A model generated the notes under the pieces. The model was not told the DNA's origin, made no database searches, and saw only the letters and a list, made by a program, of their open reading frames with translations. A program made the translations under genes and the position numbers. Positions 4,311 to 60,103 of a stretch of DNA of 64,000 nt are shown in pieces. Location of the stretch: the NCBI RefSeq assembly GCF_022808915.1, contig NZ_JAKZFS010000002.1, positions 496,001 to 560,000 on the forward strand, written 5' to 3'. The first letter of the stretch is position 1. Each line of letters begins with the position of its first letter. This DNA is from Fundidesulfovibrio terrae (lineage in GTDB: Bacteria; Desulfobacterota; Desulfovibrionia; Desulfovibrionales; Desulfovibrionaceae).

Positions 4311-5630
4311 CTACAGGCGGCCCAGGGAGAGCTCACGGAAGCCCTCCTCCATGATGGCCAGGCCGCGTTCGAGCTGATCGCCGGTGATCACCAGGGGCAT
4401 GAGCGTCCTGATGACGTTGCCGTGTGTTCCGCAGGAGAGCAGCAGGAGCCCCCGGTCCACGCAGAACTTGACCAGGGCCTTGGCCTGGGTGGTGGCGGGG
4501 GTCTTCTTCTCCCGGTCGGTGACCAGTTCCAGGGCGCGCATGGGCCCGAGACCGCGCTGCTCGCCGATGATCTCGTATTTGCCCATCCACTCGGTGAAGC
4601 GCTTCTCCAGTGTCTCGCCAAGGATGCGGCCCTTTTCCAGGAGCTGGTCCTCCTCGAAGGCCTCCAGCACGGCCAGGGCCGCGCGGCAGGACAGCGGGTT
4701 GCCGCCGTAGGTGCCGCCGGTGCCGCCCACCTGGGGGGCGTCCATGATCTCGCGCCGGCCCACCACGCCCGAGATGGGCATGCCGCCGCCCAGGCTCTTG
4801 GCCACGCAGGTGAGGTCAGCTTCGATGCCGTGGTGCTCCATGGCGAAGTATTTACCGGTGCGTCCGAAGCCGGTCTGCACTTCGTCGGCCACGAACACGA
4901 TGCCGTTGTCGGCGCAGATGGCGCGCAACTTCTCGAAGTAGCGGGCGGGCGGGGACACGAATCCGCCCTCGCCCAGCACGGGCTCCACCACCAGGGCGGC
5001 CACGTTCTCGGCTGCGGTGTAGCCGATGAAGAAGTCCTTCAGCAGGTCGGCGCAGGCGGCGTCGCAGGTGGCCCGGTCGCGGCCCATGGGGCAGCGGTAG
5101 CAGTAGGCGTAGGGCATGCGGTAGACTTCGGGGGCGAAGGGGCCGAAGCCGAACTTGTAGGGCTTGACCTTGCTGGTCATGGTCATGGTCAGGAGCGTGC
5201 GGCCGTGGAAGCCGCCGTCGAAGACGATGACGCCCTGGCGGCCCGTGGCGCTACGCGCGATCTTGACCGCGTTCTCCACGGCCTCGGCCCCGGAGTTGGC
5301 GAAGAGGGCCATCTTGTCGAACCCGCCGGGAGCCAGCTGGCAGAGCTTTTCGGCCAGCTTGATGTATGGCTCGTACATGACGATGTGGAAGCAGGTGTGG
5401 ATGAACTTTTCGGCCTGGTCCTTGAGGGCGGCCACGACCTTGGGGTGGCAGTGGCCCACGTTGACCACGCCGATGCCGCCCGCGAAGTCGATGAGTTCGC
5501 GGCCGTCGATGTCGGTGATGAGTGCGCCTTCGGCCTTGGCCGCGATGTAGCGGGAGGCGTTGAAGGGGCCTTTGGGCACGTAGCGGTCGCGCAGAGCCTG
5601 GAGTTCGGCGGAATCAGTTTTTTGTCCCAC
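4311..5630 (-). CDS. gabT: Class III aminotransferase, 4-aminobutyrate aminotransferase type
   Basis: PLP-dependent omega-amino acid transaminase, 439 aa, cytoplasmic. PLP-binding landmarks are present: ANSGAEAVENA near 111, FHGRT near 141, ADEVQTGFGRTG with Asp249, and Schiff-base Lys278 in CVAKSLGGG. A Cys cluster (C177, C180, C189, C193) follows the family segment YCYRCPMG. GTG start at 5630 with AGAGGA 6 nt upstream. First gene of the operon with livKHMGF. The natural substrate could be GABA, beta-alanine, 5-aminovalerate or another amine; sequence alone does not decide. A sigma-54 promoter lies about 75 bp upstream. Confidence 0.87.
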   Translation of the reverse strand: MGQKTDSAELQALRDRYVPKGPFNASRYIAAKAEGALITDIDGRELIDFAGGIGVVNVGHCHPKVVAALKDQAEKFIHTCFHIVMYEPYIKLAEKLCQLAPGGFDKMALFANSGAEAVENAVKIARSATGRQGVIVFDGGFHGRTLLTMTMTSKVKPYKFGFGPFAPEVYRMPYAYCYRCPMGRDRATCDAACADLLKDFFIGYTAAENVAALVVEPVLGEGGFVSPPARYFEKLRAICADNGIVFVADEVQTGFGRTGKYFAMEHHGIEADLTCVAKSLGGGMPISGVVGRREIMDAPQVGGTGGTYGGNPLSCRAALAVLEAFEEDQLLEKGRILGETLEKRFTEWMGKYEIIGEQRGLGPMRALELVTDREKKTPATTQAKALVKFCVDRGLLLLSCGTHGNVIRTLMPLVITGDQLERGLAIMEEGFRELSLGRL

Positions 5631-53511: not shown

Positions 53512-54261
53512 CTACCCGATCTGCCCTTCACGGGCGAATTTCGGCTCGTGGATGGGGATGATGATGTCCGCCATGTCCCGGCACTTGAGCACGATGTCGT
53601 AGGCCTGCTTGATGTCCAGGCAGGTGGAGGGCGGGATCACTTCCATGCCCAACCCCTTGACTTCCTTGGGCGGGTAGAAGTTCTCCAGGATGCAGCAGAA
53701 CCCGGTGATGAGGGCCTTGCCCTTGGCTGTGTCCACCAGCACGCTCATGGTGCCCTCGGTGTGGGCCGGGGTGTGGATCATCTTGATGCCCGGGACCACC
53801 TCGGTGTCTCCGGTCAAGGCAACGATCTGCCCGCTCTCCTCCACGTCCAGGATGAAGTCCTCCTGGTAGCGGTAGTCCATGGGGTGCGGGTCGTGGACCA
53901 CCTCCAGCTCCTTCTCGTGCACGTAGAACTTGGCGTTGACGAACTTGTAGTCGTTCTCGCAGTGGTCGCGATGCAGATGGGTGTGGATGACGATGTCTAT
54001 GTCTTCCGGGGTCAGGCCGAAGCGCCCCAGCCCTTCCTCGATGGTCTCGATTTTGGCCCCGATGAACTCCTCGCGGTCCGGGCTGACGATGGGCTTAAGC
54101 TCCCCGGTGTCCACCAGGATCTTCTTGTCGCCGCCAAGGATCAGCCAGGCGTACAGGGGGATCACATAGGGCGTGCCCATCTGCTGCTGATAGGTCATGA
54201 AGCCTTTGTCGAAGCGCTTGGAACCGGCCACGATGGGGTGGATGGTGTAGGTCTGGGACAT
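53512..54261 (-). CDS. MBL-fold hydrolase, N-acyl-homoserine-lactonase-like
   Basis: Metallo-beta-lactamase-fold hydrolase, 249 aa. Metal motif HTHLHRDHCEND near 93-104, a second His in HTPAHTEGTMSVLV and Asp/His in the terminal IIPIHEPKF. The HTHLHRDH form and the overall size match the AttM/AiiA-like lactonase group (cd07729-like), whose members open lactone rings; true AHL activity is unproven, and other lactones or thioesters are possible. No signal peptide. ATG at 54261. Confidence 0.82.
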   Translation of the reverse strand: MSQTYTIHPIVAGSKRFDKGFMTYQQQMGTPYVIPLYAWLILGGDKKILVDTGELKPIVSPDREEFIGAKIETIEEGLGRFGLTPEDIDIVIHTHLHRDHCENDYKFVNAKFYVHEKELEVVHDPHPMDYRYQEDFILDVEESGQIVALTGDTEVVPGIKMIHTPAHTEGTMSVLVDTAKGKALITGFCCILENFYPPKEVKGLGMEVIPPSTCLDIKQAYDIVLKCRDMADIIIPIHEPKFAREGQIG

Positions 54262-54343: not shown

Positions 54344-57300
54344 TCAGATCAGGTCCAGCTGCTTTTCCTTGCGCACGGTGCGGGCCACCAAGTGGGAGCG
54401 CCGGGCCTCGTCCAGGTCGAGCTTCTTCAAAAACCGTGAGGGCTTGAGCATGAGCAGCCTGCCGTAGAGCTCGCGCTTCTCGGCGTGGCTCAAGTACAGG
54501 CGCGACTTGGCCCGGGTGAGCCCCACGTAGAACAGGCGCTCCTCCTCGGCCTCGTCGGGCGGGGCCTCGGCCGGGGAGAGCTTTCCCGTGAGCATGCCCA
54601 TGCCCGCGAAAGGCAGGATGCCGTCCTCCAGCGACGGCAAAAACACCACCTCGAACTCCAACCCCTTGGCCGCGTGCAGGCTCATGATGCGCACCTTCTC
54701 GGACCTGCGCCCCACGAGCTCGAGCTCGCTCTGGGCGTTGACGAAGGTCAGGAGCCCTGCCCAGCCGCCGTGCCTGGAGTAGCCGTCCACCAGTTCGCCG
54801 AATTCGGGGCTCTGCCAGAAGAGGTGGTCGAAGGGCGGCACGTCGCGAAGGTAGAAGGCGATCTCCTTGGGGCCCTTGGCCAGCACCCGGTCCGGGCAGG
54901 CCAGGGTGAGCGCGCCCTCCATGCCGGCCATGCCCAGGAAGCGCCCGGCGGCGTTCAGGATGGCCTTCACCCGCGAATCCGCCCAGAAGGCTTCGGCCTC
55001 GGGCACGGAGCAGGGCACGCCGTAGCGGTTGAGCGCCTTCTGGATGGGGTCCATGAGCCCTTTGAAACGCACCAGGATGGCGATGTCTCCGGGCGAAAGA
55101 ACGGGTCCGTGGCCCTTGGTCAGGGTGAGCGACGTGGGGCCGAGCAGCTGCCTGATCTTTTCCCCCATCCAGGAGACCTCGCGCAACGCCTGGGGCGCGG
55201 TGAACTCCATGATCTCGCCCTGGTCCCGGACGCGCCTGGCGGTGAGGCGCGTCGAGCGCGGGAACAGGCCGTGGGCCAAGTCCAGCACGGCCTGGGTGGA
55301 GCGGTAGTTCTCGTCCAGGGTGACGATGACGAGCTCGCGCCAGAATCCCTGGAGCTCGCGGGCCACGTCGCTGACCGCGCCCCGGAAGCCGTAGATGGAC
55401 TGGTTGGGGTCGCCGATGCCGAAGAAGGTGCGCAGGGGGCCGTCGGACAGGGCCCGGATGATGGACAGCTGCAGGGGCGAGAGGTCCTGCACCTCGTCCA
55501 CCAGCACGTGCTTGAACCCGGATTCGTAGATGCCCGCCTCGATCTTCTCCAGCCAGAATTCCAGCAGGTCGGTGTAGTCGGCCAGGTTCCAGGAGGCCTT
55601 CTGCTTGGCGTAACGCGCGGCGTGATCCTCGGGAGTGGGGGGCTGGGCCGGGGTGGCCCCTGTCCCGGTGCCGCTTCCGGGCTGGCCTGAAGTTCCGGCG
55701 GATGTTCCGGGAGATGCGGCCGGAAGCGGGGCGGACGGAGTCCCGGACCGGATGTTCGGCGCGGAGGCAGCGCCCAAGGCCCCGCCGCGCGTTTTGTCGG
55801 CCGCCTCTCCCGGGATGTCCCGGGCCTCCCCGGGGGCTTTGGGCCACACGGGCAGGGGGCGGCGGCGCATGCGCTCGCGGTCCAGGGTGAGCTGCTGCCA
55901 GGCCTGTTTGAGCTTGGGGCCGGTGAGTTCCGGGTTGACCTCGGCGAAGAGCCTGCGGGCGGCCTCCTCGGAGAGCAGCACCGGTTTCTCCCCGTAGGCT
56001 TCGGTCCAGTACTCGTGGGCCAGGGCGTGCAGGGTGTCGGCGCGCACCGGAGCCTCGCCCAGGCGTTCTTGGAGTTCCTGGGCGGCGCGCCGGGTGAAGG
56101 TGACCACCAGCAGGCTGCGCGGGTCGGCTCCTGTGTCGAGCAGGTGGCGGATGCGGGCCATGAGGGTGTGGGTCTTGCCCGTGCCGGGACCGGCCAGCAC
56201 AAGTAGACGCGGGTCCTTGGAGGTGGCCGCATGGTGCTGGCGGCCGTTGAGCGCGGCCAGGGCAACGACCGGTGCGACGGCCGGTGGCGCGCCCGCCCCG
56301 GTATCCCCCGAAATATCCGCCGGTTCGGCTGTGTTCCCGGCTGCCTTCGCCTTTCCGGCCTTTTTCGAGCCCGGGGAGTTCCGGGAACCCGCCGGGGAAC
56401 TCACCAGGGCCGTGCCGCGCGTAAGCCGCGTCAGCTCCTCAGGGCTGAACACCCGGATGCGCCCGTACTGCCCGTCGAATCCGGGTTGGCGGAACACCTC
56501 GCCCCGGCGCATGCGCCCCACGGCCTCGGCCAGCACGGCGGACTCCTTGGCGATGTCCTCCAGCGGCGCATCCGATAGGATGTGCAACTCCGGCCCGAGC
56601 TTGCCGAGCAGCCGGGCCATGGACGCCTGGACCTTCTTGGAGCCGGCGCCGACGCCGTGGATCTCGCCCAGTACTTCGCTCAAGGGTATGAGCGAGACGA
56701 ATCCCGGCTGGCCCTGGGGCCGCACGGGCTGCTCGCGGTCGGCCAGGTCCAGCACCCGGTGCAGCACGCCCACGGTGAGGGGCTTGCCGCACACCGGGCA
56801 GATGCCGCGTTTGGCCTTGGTTTCGTGGGGGTCCATGACCACGCCGCAGGCCAGGTGGCCGTCCATGTGGTATTTGCCTTCCTCGGGGAAGAACTCCACG
56901 GTGCCCAGGAAATCGTGCCCCACGCCCTCGCCCCGGAGGGCCCGGTAGATGCCCTCGTAGGAGACCGGGCCGGAGAACAGGTTGGCCTCGCGCCCCAGCT
57001 TCTCCCCCGAGTGCGCGTCGGAGTTGGAGATGAGCCGGTAGCGGTCCAGGCTCGAGTTGAGCCAGTTCATCTCCGGGTCGGAGGAGAGCCCCGTCTCCAG
57101 GGCGAAGATGTGCTGGGCGTAGCTGCCGAAGCACTCTTCCACCGAGTCGAAGCCCGACTTGGAGCCGAAGATGGAGAACCAGGGGGTCCAGATGTGGGCG
57201 GGCACCAGGAAGGCCAGCGGATCGGTCTCTAGCACCATCTCCAGCAGGTGGCGGCTGTCCAGGCCCAGGATGGGGCGGCCGTCGGAGGCCAGGTTGCCCA

Positions 57301-57694
57301 CGCGCGAAAGTTTTTCGTTGAGTTTTTCGGCCGCCTCGAAGGTGGGCACGTAGACCAGGTTGTGGACTTTGCGGACCTTGCCGCCGCGCTTGTAGATGGA
57401 GCTGATCTCGGCCGAGAGGATGAACTTGGCGCGCCCCGGCAGGGGGTAGTCGGTGAGCCAGGGGATTTCCGGCTCCAGGCCCGTGGGGTCCTTGAGGTGC
57501 AGCAGGCCCTGGCCGTCGGGGGCCAGCAGGTCCTTGAGCTCCTCGAGCCAGGCGGGATGGGTGAAGTCCCCGGTGGCCACCACATCGATGCCCTTGGCCC
57601 TGGCCCACGCGGCCAGATGCCTCGGGGTCAGGCCCTTGCTGGTGGCCCTGGAGAAACGCGAATGTACGTGGAGGTCGGCCCGGTATTGATCCAT
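54344..57694 (-). CDS. EndoQ-like PHP endonuclease fused to UvrD/Rep-family helicase
   Basis: 1116 aa. Residues 1-330 match endonuclease Q: PHP metal residues in DLHVHSRFSRATSKGL (H9, H11), TGDFTHPAWL (D43), SAEIS (E96), H111, PAHIWTPWFS (H167) and SNSDAHSG (D226, H228), plus a Cys/His site (C283, C299, C302, H312). A helix-hairpin-like region follows (about 335-420), then a low-complexity linker (430-475). From 490 on it is a UvrD-type helicase: Walker A GPGTGKT (502-508), DEVQD (733-737), GDPNQSIYGFRG, LDENYRST, SLHAAKGLEFEVVFLP and LFYVGLTRAK. A Gly/Pro/Ser/Thr-rich insertion spans 620-690. Predicted to nick DNA at deaminated bases and unwind from the nick (inference). ATG at 57694. Confidence 0.9.
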   Translation of the reverse strand: MDQYRADLHVHSRFSRATSKGLTPRHLAAWARAKGIDVVATGDFTHPAWLEELKDLLAPDGQGLLHLKDPTGLEPEIPWLTDYPLPGRAKFILSAEISSIYKRGGKVRKVHNLVYVPTFEAAEKLNEKLSRVGNLASDGRPILGLDSRHLLEMVLETDPLAFLVPAHIWTPWFSIFGSKSGFDSVEECFGSYAQHIFALETGLSSDPEMNWLNSSLDRYRLISNSDAHSGEKLGREANLFSGPVSYEGIYRALRGEGVGHDFLGTVEFFPEEGKYHMDGHLACGVVMDPHETKAKRGICPVCGKPLTVGVLHRVLDLADREQPVRPQGQPGFVSLIPLSEVLGEIHGVGAGSKKVQASMARLLGKLGPELHILSDAPLEDIAKESAVLAEAVGRMRRGEVFRQPGFDGQYGRIRVFSPEELTRLTRGTALVSSPAGSRNSPGSKKAGKAKAAGNTAEPADISGDTGAGAPPAVAPVVALAALNGRQHHAATSKDPRLLVLAGPGTGKTHTLMARIRHLLDTGADPRSLLVVTFTRRAAQELQERLGEAPVRADTLHALAHEYWTEAYGEKPVLLSEEAARRLFAEVNPELTGPKLKQAWQQLTLDRERMRRRPLPVWPKAPGEARDIPGEAADKTRGGALGAASAPNIRSGTPSAPLPAASPGTSAGTSGQPGSGTGTGATPAQPPTPEDHAARYAKQKASWNLADYTDLLEFWLEKIEAGIYESGFKHVLVDEVQDLSPLQLSIIRALSDGPLRTFFGIGDPNQSIYGFRGAVSDVARELQGFWRELVIVTLDENYRSTQAVLDLAHGLFPRSTRLTARRVRDQGEIMEFTAPQALREVSWMGEKIRQLLGPTSLTLTKGHGPVLSPGDIAILVRFKGLMDPIQKALNRYGVPCSVPEAEAFWADSRVKAILNAAGRFLGMAGMEGALTLACPDRVLAKGPKEIAFYLRDVPPFDHLFWQSPEFGELVDGYSRHGGWAGLLTFVNAQSELELVGRRSEKVRIMSLHAAKGLEFEVVFLPSLEDGILPFAGMGMLTGKLSPAEAPPDEAEEERLFYVGLTRAKSRLYLSHAEKRELYGRLLMLKPSRFLKKLDLDEARRSHLVARTVRKEKQLDLI

Positions 57695-57738: not shown

Positions 57739-58989
57739 CTAGGGGGCAAGAGTCCCGGAGAAGTGATCGAAATCTTTGAGGGCTTGCGCCTGGGCGTGGC
57801 GCCGGATCCCGTCCAGATCGTGACGTCTGGCGGACACAGTGCTGACCACGTCGGGATCCAGGGCCTTGCGGTCGGCCAGTTCCTGGAGGGACTCGACGAT
57901 CTTGTGCAGCTCGATGCCCGCGCGGTAGGGGCGGTCCTCGCCCATGGCGGTGAACACGTCCGACACGGCCAGCACCCGCGAGGCCAGCCCGATCCTTGCG
58001 CCCTTGAGCCCGTGCGGATAGCCCGTGCCGTCCAGGCGCTCGTGGTGCTGTCCCACCAGCTCGGCCACTTCCTCAAGCCCCGGCGCGGCGCTTAAGGCGT
58101 TGTAGCCGTGCTCGGCGTGGCGCTGCATGGTGGCCGTCTCCTTCTCGTCCAGGGCGGCGGGTTTCATGATGATCTCGTTGGGGACGCCCAGCTTGCCCAG
58201 GTCGTGCAGCTCGCTGGCCACCTCAAGGGCGTCGCGGTTGTCGCCGCTCATGCGCAGCTCGTGGGCGATGGCCATGGACGTGGCCGAGACGCCGCGCGAA
58301 TGGGTGGCGGTGAAACGGCAGCGGAAGTCGATCACCTGGCTGAAGAGCCGCGCCAGGCGGGAGACGTCCTTGCCCCCGAGCAACGGGTTGTTCTCGTCTG
58401 GGATGGTCATGCGCAGGTCGATGGCGTCGGACTCCGACACCTGCTCGAGAAAGCCGGTGTCCACCAACTCTTCCAGGGCGTCCACCCACCAGGGGTTGAA
58501 CATGCGGCCCGTGCCCGAGCGTATCCTGGCCAGGATGAAGTCGCGGTCCACGCTTTCGCCGGGAGACCTGGGCAGCAGCGTCTCCACGCGGTCGGCCAGG
58601 CAGAGCAGGTTGCCCAGCTCCAGGTCGGGCAGGAAGACGGTCTTGGGCCGGCTGTCGTTGTTCCAGGCGGCGTGGTGGCTGCGCACCAGCCCGGCGGCGC
58701 TGGCGAATTCGGGATAGCTGAGAAGCAGGCGGTAGCCGATCTCGGGGTGGGTCTGGTCGTCGGATTCGAAGGCCAGGGTGGAGAGGCGGTCCTTGAGGGC
58801 GAAGGCGCCCATGTCGTGAAGCATGCCCGCCAGGGCAAGATCGGCGCAACGCTGGCCCGGCAGGCCCACGGTCTCGCCGAGCTTGAAGGCCACGGCCCCC
58901 ACGCGGATGTGGTGCCCGGCCACTTCGGGGCTGACCAGGTCCATGGCGCTGGACAGACACCCGACCATATCGAAAAGACGCATGCTCAC
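57739..58989 (-). CDS. Double HD-domain protein with C-terminal HD-GYP
   Basis: 416 aa, cytoplasmic, no receiver or membrane part. The N-terminal half (about 20-170) has an HD-type core, GMLHDMGAFALKD and RSHHAAWNND; the C-terminal half (about 225-400) is an HD-GYP domain with SELHDLGKLGVPNEII and HHERLDGTGYPHGL, the signature of cyclic-di-GMP phosphodiesterases. It may degrade c-di-GMP or sense it. GTG start 58989 with TGGAG upstream, ATG 6 nt later as alternative. The long inverted repeat at 59122-59157 lies upstream. Confidence 0.87.
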   Translation of the reverse strand: MSMRLFDMVGCLSSAMDLVSPEVAGHHIRVGAVAFKLGETVGLPGQRCADLALAGMLHDMGAFALKDRLSTLAFESDDQTHPEIGYRLLLSYPEFASAAGLVRSHHAAWNNDSRPKTVFLPDLELGNLLCLADRVETLLPRSPGESVDRDFILARIRSGTGRMFNPWWVDALEELVDTGFLEQVSESDAIDLRMTIPDENNPLLGGKDVSRLARLFSQVIDFRCRFTATHSRGVSATSMAIAHELRMSGDNRDALEVASELHDLGKLGVPNEIIMKPAALDEKETATMQRHAEHGYNALSAAPGLEEVAELVGQHHERLDGTGYPHGLKGARIGLASRVLAVSDVFTAMGEDRPYRAGIELHKIVESLQELADRKALDPDVVSTVSARRHDLDGIRRHAQAQALKDFDHFSGTLAP

Positions 58990-59218: not shown

Positions 59219-60019
59219 CTAGCCCGCGCCGCAGTCGGACTGGTCCCCGTGGCATTTCTCCAGGGCATGCTCCATGGCCGGAAGGATGGCGGCCAGCGTC
59301 TCGCGCACGCCCTTGGGGGAACCGGGCAGGTTGACCACCAGGCAGCCGCCCAGAAAGCCCGCCACCGCCCGGGAGATCACCGCCCTGGGCGTGGATTGTA
59401 TCCCAGCCAGGGTCATGGCCGCCTCGAAGCCGGGCAGGCGCTTCTCGATCACCGCCTGGGTGGCCTCGGGGGTGATGTCGCGCGGGCCCACCCCCGTGCC
59501 GCCGGTGGTGACCACGATGTCGAAGCGCTGGGTCAGGGCCAGGTCCATGAGCAGCGCCTTCAGGCGGCGCTGGTCGTCGGGCAGGATGTGCCCCTGGATC
59601 ACCGAAAGCCCCAGCTCCGCCGCCACCATGTCGCCGATGAGCGGCCCCGAGGAGTCGTCGCGCAGGCCCGCCGAGCCCTTGTCGGAGAGCGTCACCCAGG
59701 CCAGGCTGTAGCCGCCCGTCCAGGCCTTGAAGCTAGCCGCGCCGGTGGGCAGGTAGACCTCGTCCAGGGCGTCGGCCAGGATCACGTCCATGGCCGGGGC
59801 CGCGCCGCCCTCGGGCCAGCGCATGCGCCCGGCCACCTGGAAGAGCGGAATGGCGTCCTGCCTGCCCAGGTAGGTCCCCGCGCCGAGCTCCGGCAGCGCG
59901 CCCACGGCGGGCAGAACAGGCGCGAGGCCCCCCGAGGGAGCCCCCGAAGAGATGAAGACGCGCTGGCCCGGAAGGATGGTCGTATCCTGGGTCACGGCGA
60001 GAAGCATCGAGGCGTTCAT
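59219..60019 (-). CDS. MogA/MoaB-type molybdenum cofactor protein with extra N-terminal domain
   Basis: 266 aa. Residues about 105-255 are a MoCF_biosynth domain: LAWVTLSDKGSAGLRDDSSG, VTTGGTGVGPRDITPEAT, and NLPGSPKGVRETL, the molybdopterin-adenylylation fold. The first 100 residues (GQRVFISSGAPSGG, GAGTYLGRQDAIPLFQVAG) are not part of MogA and are not recognised. Length is about 100 more than MogA/MoaB. ATG at 60019 with AGGTGG upstream. No other moa/moe gene is adjacent. Divergent from rfbA. Confidence 0.85.
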   Translation of the reverse strand: MNASMLLAVTQDTTILPGQRVFISSGAPSGGLAPVLPAVGALPELGAGTYLGRQDAIPLFQVAGRMRWPEGGAAPAMDVILADALDEVYLPTGAASFKAWTGGYSLAWVTLSDKGSAGLRDDSSGPLIGDMVAAELGLSVIQGHILPDDQRRLKALLMDLALTQRFDIVVTTGGTGVGPRDITPEATQAVIEKRLPGFEAAMTLAGIQSTPRAVISRAVAGFLGGCLVVNLPGSPKGVRETLAAILPAMEHALEKCHGDQSDCGAG

Positions 60020-60103
60020 GTGAAACCACCTTGACTGTTGCAAATTTGGCGGGCATGGGCCACAAGCCCACTACTGAAAAAAAACGCACATGCGAGGACA
60101 TGC

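Follow-up and report, generated by a model that had tools for sequence, protein, structure and literature searches.

An EndoQ-like nuclease fused to a UvrD-type helicase in Fundidesulfovibrio terrae and other bacteria: a candidate clamp-recruited incision-and-unwinding enzyme for deaminated bases

Background

Incision followed by unwinding with a UvrD-type helicase is the logic of both UvrABC with UvrD and excision by UvrD from a MutL nick; UvrD-type motors move 3'-5'. The protein described here shares this logic and differs in being a single polypeptide that includes a putative lesion-specific incision enzyme. To our knowledge, UDG is generally taken to be almost universal among bacteria, and repair by direct incision has so far been known from archaea, where the enzyme has no motor of its own.

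The archaeal EndoQ enzymes (PfuEndoQ and TkoEndoQ) are stand-alone proteins of about 400-424 amino acid residues, whereas the present protein has a helicase between the nuclease and the tail. The hallmarks of EndoQ are the PHP metal ligands, the SDAH motif, and conserved E/H residues, and the published pathway model (NAR 2015) has two cuts followed by 'removal by helicase activity' of the excised piece (PMC4357722). The C-terminal PIP box of archaeal EndoQ binds PCNA, and PCNA stimulates nicking (PMC4858679). In bacteria, the EndoQ of Bacillus pumilus is active, as cited in PMC6202378, and EndoQ homologs from Desulfovibrio have already been published (PMC4357722). A clamp motif in bacterial EndoQ homologs was reported by Shiraishi et al. 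in 2016 (PMC4858679), which rules it out as a discovery of the present analysis; Q-L-x-L-F has been published as the consensus of beta-clamp motifs (PMC4549789).

In the present study, we examined a gene of Fundidesulfovibrio terrae in which EndoQ is joined to a UvrD-type helicase. We found no text on such a fusion in open-access papers (mention in subscription papers is possible), and the fusion looks unstudied.

Results and Discussion

The ORF check of the window (the whole 64,000-nucleotide stretch of F. terrae DNA that was analysed) gave a frame on the (-) strand, with an ATG start, at exactly 54344-57694, encoding 1116 residues plus a stop codon. The frame is far beyond chance because it is open in nearly all relatives, where orthologous fused frames occur, and in a same-genus copy with 78% identity. 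Dozens of genomes carry the same fused frame, which rules out a frameshift or an assembly chimera. A sequence-only reading had proposed an EndoQ-like nuclease and a UvrD helicase in this one ORF, and profiles, phmmer, the predicted fold, and fused relatives confirmed it.

The EndoQ domain (PHP, zinc, and C-terminal parts; residues 4-424, 56423..57685, (-) strand), assigned by phmmer, BLASTP, Foldseek, and ligands, is followed by a linker (residues 425-480, 56255..56422, (-)) in which RGTALV is what is left of a decayed internal Q..LF motif. The UvrD/PcrA-type SF1A helicase (residues 481-1100, 54395..56254, (-)) was assigned by PF00580, PF13361, and Foldseek. Motif counts in homologs defined the beta-clamp-type motif QLDLI (residues 1112-1116, 54347..54361, (-)). 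In the AlphaFold model of the protein (45 homologs, mean pLDDT of 79), residues 429-473 of the linker and a Pro/Gly/Ser-rich insert in the helicase (residues 619-681, 55652..55840, (-)) had pLDDT values below 50 and are disordered; the tail (residues 1103-1116) was of low confidence.

EndoQ had been placed in the N-terminal 330 residues. Its identity held, and its length was revised to about 420 residues: phmmer matched residues 6-422 to the PfuEndoQ chains 5zb8/7k30 over the whole EndoQ length (E values from 7e-53 to 3.5e-52). BLASTP gave 33% identity between PfuEndoQ and the N-terminal half over 419 columns, and the AlphaFold model of this half matched 5zb8 with a TM by target of 0.89 and an rmsd of 2.5 (Foldseek), i.e., it has the EndoQ fold. 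The full-length match and the fold ruled out another PHP family, such as the polymerase or histidinol phosphatase families. The window protein has lost none of the metal ligands; in an alignment of 95 fused homologs, H11, E96, H111, H167, and H228 were present in all 95, and H9 and D226 in 94. The window protein also has E200 and the SDAH motif (S225-D226-A227-H228). Both the PHP metal site and the Cys/His site of the sequence-only reading are present with their ligands, and the latter is now corrected to a zinc site of the form H280-x2-C283 ... C299-x2-C302 (56789..56857, (-)), conserved in 94, 95, 95, and 95 of the 95 homologs, respectively. It aligns to the C-x2-C ... C-x2-C of PfuEndoQ, with position, spacing, and CPVCG kept. 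The archaeal enzymes and the fusion are therefore alike in the full-length PHP, zinc, and C-terminal fold and in the ligands, and differ in one zinc residue, since the site is His-Cys-Cys-Cys here and four Cys in Pyrococcus (the first Cys is replaced by His).

The EndoQ half scored 163.8 bits against TIGR00375 (NCBIfam), below the curated cut-off of 326.6 bits. This cut-off was reached by none of the 296 genomes of the phylum sample, stand-alone EndoQ forms included; it thus mirrors the narrower set of the model, and we did not take it as EndoQ-defining. A homolog from the same family (L026:4664-7783, (-)) has D226N in its SDAH motif (NSNAHS), as in the PfuEndoQ PDB chain 7k31. The nuclease of this homolog may be dead while its helicase stays, judging from the substitution.

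The UvrD/Rep motifs that had been noted in the C-terminal part were fully borne out. Residues 482-1100 scored 130.5 bits against PF00580 and 111.7 bits against PF13361, both above the gathering scores, and motifs I-VI are present, with motif residues kept in 93-95 of the 95 fused homologs. K507 and T508 of the Walker A motif AGPGTGKT (residues 501-508, 56171..56194, (-)) and D733 and E734 of motif II, DEVQD (residues 733-737, 55484..55498, (-)), were found in 95 of 95. The helicase half, which carries all SF1A motifs as UvrD, PcrA, and Rep do, also has the UvrD fold (TM by target up to 0.72, Foldseek). Its score against the PcrA equivalog model was 192 bits, far below the cut-off of 911; thus, the fused helicase forms its own subfamily. 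A separate housekeeping UvrD/PcrA is also present, which makes the motor of the fusion additional to it and dedicated. By analogy with other members of the family, it would unwind in the 3'-5' direction.

The helicase half also scores against the GajB models of PADLOC, as would be expected of an anti-phage, Gabija-like nuclease-helicase acting against uracil-containing or modified invading DNA. We consider this reading very improbable: the GajB matches reflect the similarity shared by UvrD helicases in general, and nearly all members of the order Desulfovibrionales have the gene, which lies there in conserved housekeeping neighbourhoods and is not island-like. Neither GajA or another defence component in the protein nor an island setting was found; the EndoQ half matched no PADLOC model, and the distribution is that of a core gene. 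The PADLOC result rules out an anti-phage system as the main reading.

The motif QLDLI is the extreme C-terminus of the window protein; other fused proteins have QLxLF, and the last residue here is I, not F. Defined strictly as Q[LM]x[LM][FLIM] inside the last 12 residues, the tail motif was found in 75 of 93 complete fused proteins, compared with background levels of 0.15% for internal 12-mers and 5 in 874 for the ends of other long ORFs. In the other 18 of the 93, the tail was degenerate or missing. Q1112 was conserved in 86 of the 95 fused homologs. The housekeeping UvrD/PcrA of the same genome group ends in a VNFPGFGxK..-type sequence instead, and the clamp-type motif was found in 0 of 11 of these paralogs, a count that leaves out locus L162 (an antisense frame). 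In 42 of the 95 fused proteins, the linker also has a Q..LF-type motif just where the EndoQ part stops, which is the position of the C-terminus in the stand-alone enzymes; this figure includes several close relatives and is not a count of events. Clamp-type tails are common to the fusion and the archaeal enzymes, of the QLxLF type in the former and a PIP box in the latter. By its sequence, the tail should bind the beta sliding clamp (DnaN). The sequence-only reading was silent on this tail, as it was on two points described below: how widely the fusion is distributed, and that many relatives lack UDG and EndoV.

The suggestion that relatives might carry the same fusion proved right. EndoQ was matched in 56 of 59 relatives, and in all 51 near-complete genomes of the order. 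Open frames of 996-1406 residues accounted for 54 of the 56 matches; the other two had 686 and 499 residues. EndoQ occurred in 197 of the 296 phylum-sample genomes, in two main size classes of about 415-580 and 890-1270 residues. A scan of named genomes gave at least 591 relatives, and among the best 80 of these the fusion occurred in at least ten phyla. By record titles, the fused forms among these 80 are from Desulfobacterota, Myxococcota, Gemmatimonadota, Latescibacterota, KSB1, Fibrobacterota, Chloroflexota, Binatota, Planctomycetota, Bacillota (Neglectibacter), Actinomycetota (Actinopolyspora and Saccharopolyspora), Elusimicrobiota, Melainabacteria, and Pseudomonadota; single phylum assignments may be wrong because many of the records are metagenome bins.

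A quick tree of 122 EndoQ domains, with its root on the very long Pyrococcus branch, placed all 103 fused rows in one clade with an SH-aLRT of 98, together with seven stand-alone rows; the remaining stand-alone EndoQs lay outside. Judged from this tree, the fusion is of a single old origin, nested within stand-alone bacterial EndoQs. The stand-alone bacterial enzymes (Bacillus type and Desulfobacterota) are related to the fusion by the tree, in which the Desulfobacterota ones were tested, and many end in Q..LF; they differ in having no helicase fused or adjoining. Indeed, no helicase was found next door to the stand-alone EndoQs outside the fused clade at L054-L058, L060, L061, L104, L108, and L134. 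Of the seven stand-alone rows within the clade, four are directly followed by the helicase on the same strand; an in-frame stop (L059) or a frame change (L093) separates the halves, or they are two genes (L099 and L137, Omnitrophota). At L059, a stop codon alone (5030-5032, (+)) separates EndoQ from the helicase, and the frame is shared. Both split products have clamp-type ends at L099 (QLTLF and QLKLF) and L137 (QLTLF and QMTLF).

That each split product has its own clamp motif, and that the linker is long and disordered, would suit two independent enzymes whose joining in one chain serves only to co-express them or to bring both to the clamp, with EndoQ working as in archaea and the helicase acting elsewhere, e.g., at stalled forks. 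The split genes nevertheless remain adjacent on the same strand, and the fusion has been maintained in many phyla; we regard such independence as unlikely.

In most of 20 loci from the order, the fusion heads a same-strand run of genes for a CbiR-like TIM barrel, CobU, a DHH phosphoesterase, and polA. DHH was present in 16 of the 20 loci and polA in 12-15, depending on the test. 'CbiR-like' is our guess from the setting, as the Pfam match of this gene is a weak TIM-barrel match only. At L033 (8026-12902, (+)), the run downstream of the fusion comprises the TIM-barrel gene, CobU, the DHH phosphoesterase, and polA, i.e., a cobamide gene lies between repair genes. In F. terrae itself, the run is broken, and polA is about 340 kb away. 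Just downstream of the fusion in the window (53512-54261, (-)) is a metallo-beta-lactamase-fold protein like AHL lactonases (85.9 bits against the AiiA model, with a cut-off of 375), and just upstream (57739-58989, (-)) is an HD-domain protein (HD_5, in two stretches). Further upstream, a MoCF-type gene (59219-60043) is common to nine other loci. The Desulfobacterales copies of the fusion are oriented divergently to dnaN and gyrB (e.g., L064:759-4312, (-), and L065:627-4881, (-)); at several loci, an RdgC-like gene lies between them, along with a companion gene that matches no Pfam family. Antisense frames of the fusion gene made up part of the automatic neighbour clusters; thus, we used individually checked clusters. 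The polA and dnaN/gyrB settings fit, and do not prove, a role of the fusion in replication or repair.

These neighbourhoods, together with the clamp-type tail and the UvrD-type motor, would also suit a replication-linked role resembling mismatch repair, in which EndoQ nicks at misincorporated dUMP (or dIMP) and the clamp-tethered helicase excises a long patch of the new strand, by analogy with MutL nicking and UvrD. The lesion pocket of EndoQ points, by homology, to deaminated bases whatever their origin, and we give this alternative a low probability.

All 51 near-complete genomes of the order had EndoQ, whereas 19 of them had a UDG-superfamily match and one had EndoV. Absence of UDG means no PF03167 match at an E value of 0.001 and is not proof of absent activity. 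In the phylum sample, 272 of the 296 genomes had UDG, and the 12 other genomes of the family Desulfovibrionaceae (99-100% complete) all had EndoQ and no UDG match. That many genomes of this family have no UDG match, and nearly the whole order sample no EndoV, is unusual for bacteria. EndoQ as a phylum-wide substitute for UDG was ruled out: outside the family, UDG was nearly always present and usually coexisted with EndoQ in the phylum sample. UDG was missing less often in EndoQ-positive than in EndoQ-negative genomes of the sample, the latter being mostly fragmented. F. terrae and five of six other sampled members of its genus have a UDG-superfamily gene. The F. terrae gene (L142:683-1303, (+)) is divergent, with 39 bits against PF03167, far under the family-4 cut-off. 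An adenylate-kinase-like gene adjoins it.

Conclusions

We suggest that the fusion probably acts on deaminated bases as an incision-and-unwinding enzyme recruited by the clamp. The direct basis of this mechanism is the domain identity, the intact catalytic residues in both halves, the single old origin, and the tail conservation; from these we infer lesion-specific nicking, clamp binding, the helicase direction, and all downstream steps. The C-terminal QLxLF-type tail would dock onto the beta sliding clamp, and the EndoQ half would nick the DNA immediately 5' to a uracil, a hypoxanthine, or an AP site to give 3'-OH and 5'-P ends. The UvrD-type motor, on its flexible linker, would then load at the nick and travel 3'-5' along the undamaged strand. 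In doing so it would displace the strand with the lesion, beginning at the 5' end created by the nick. We place the motor on the opposite strand because a 3'-5' motor must, by this reasoning, peel the lesion strand from the 5' end. Finally, a polymerase would extend the 3'-OH, the flap would be cut away by a nuclease acting from the 5' end or on single strands, and a ligase would seal the strand. The 'nick-and-unwind machine' of the sequence-only reading, drawn from the domains, would act in this way.

We favour the clamp-recruited reading because the EndoQ homology is full-length with all ligands and the UvrD motifs are conserved, and because the clamp-type tail is strongly enriched and absent from the paralogous UvrDs of the same genome group. 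It is also favoured by the split halves, adjacent on the same strand and both ending in the motif at two loci; by the single fused clade within stand-alone EndoQs, many of which end in Q..LF; and by the universal EndoQ of the order set against its patchy UDG and rare EndoV. The separate housekeeping UvrD/PcrA, which makes the fused motor a dedicated extra, and the DHH/polA cluster of the order and the dnaN/gyrB neighbourhood of Desulfobacterales argue in the same direction. The score below the TIGR00375 cut-off and the UDG gene in F. terrae and most members of its genus count against it, as do the coexistence of EndoQ and UDG outside the family, where EndoQ is no general UDG substitute, the cobamide genes in the polA cluster, the break of this cluster in F. 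terrae, and the degenerate or missing tails of some fused members.

If the clamp-recruited reading is true, those Desulfovibrionaceae that have EndoQ and no UDG match repair cytosine deamination by direct incision and helicase excision; the published EndoQ model invoked a helicase, and in the fusion it is built in. Tentatively, a distinct bacterial excision pathway for deaminated bases, with lesion recognition, nicking, and unwinding by a single clamp-bound protein, may have replaced UDG and EndoV in most members of this family and may work across many phyla.
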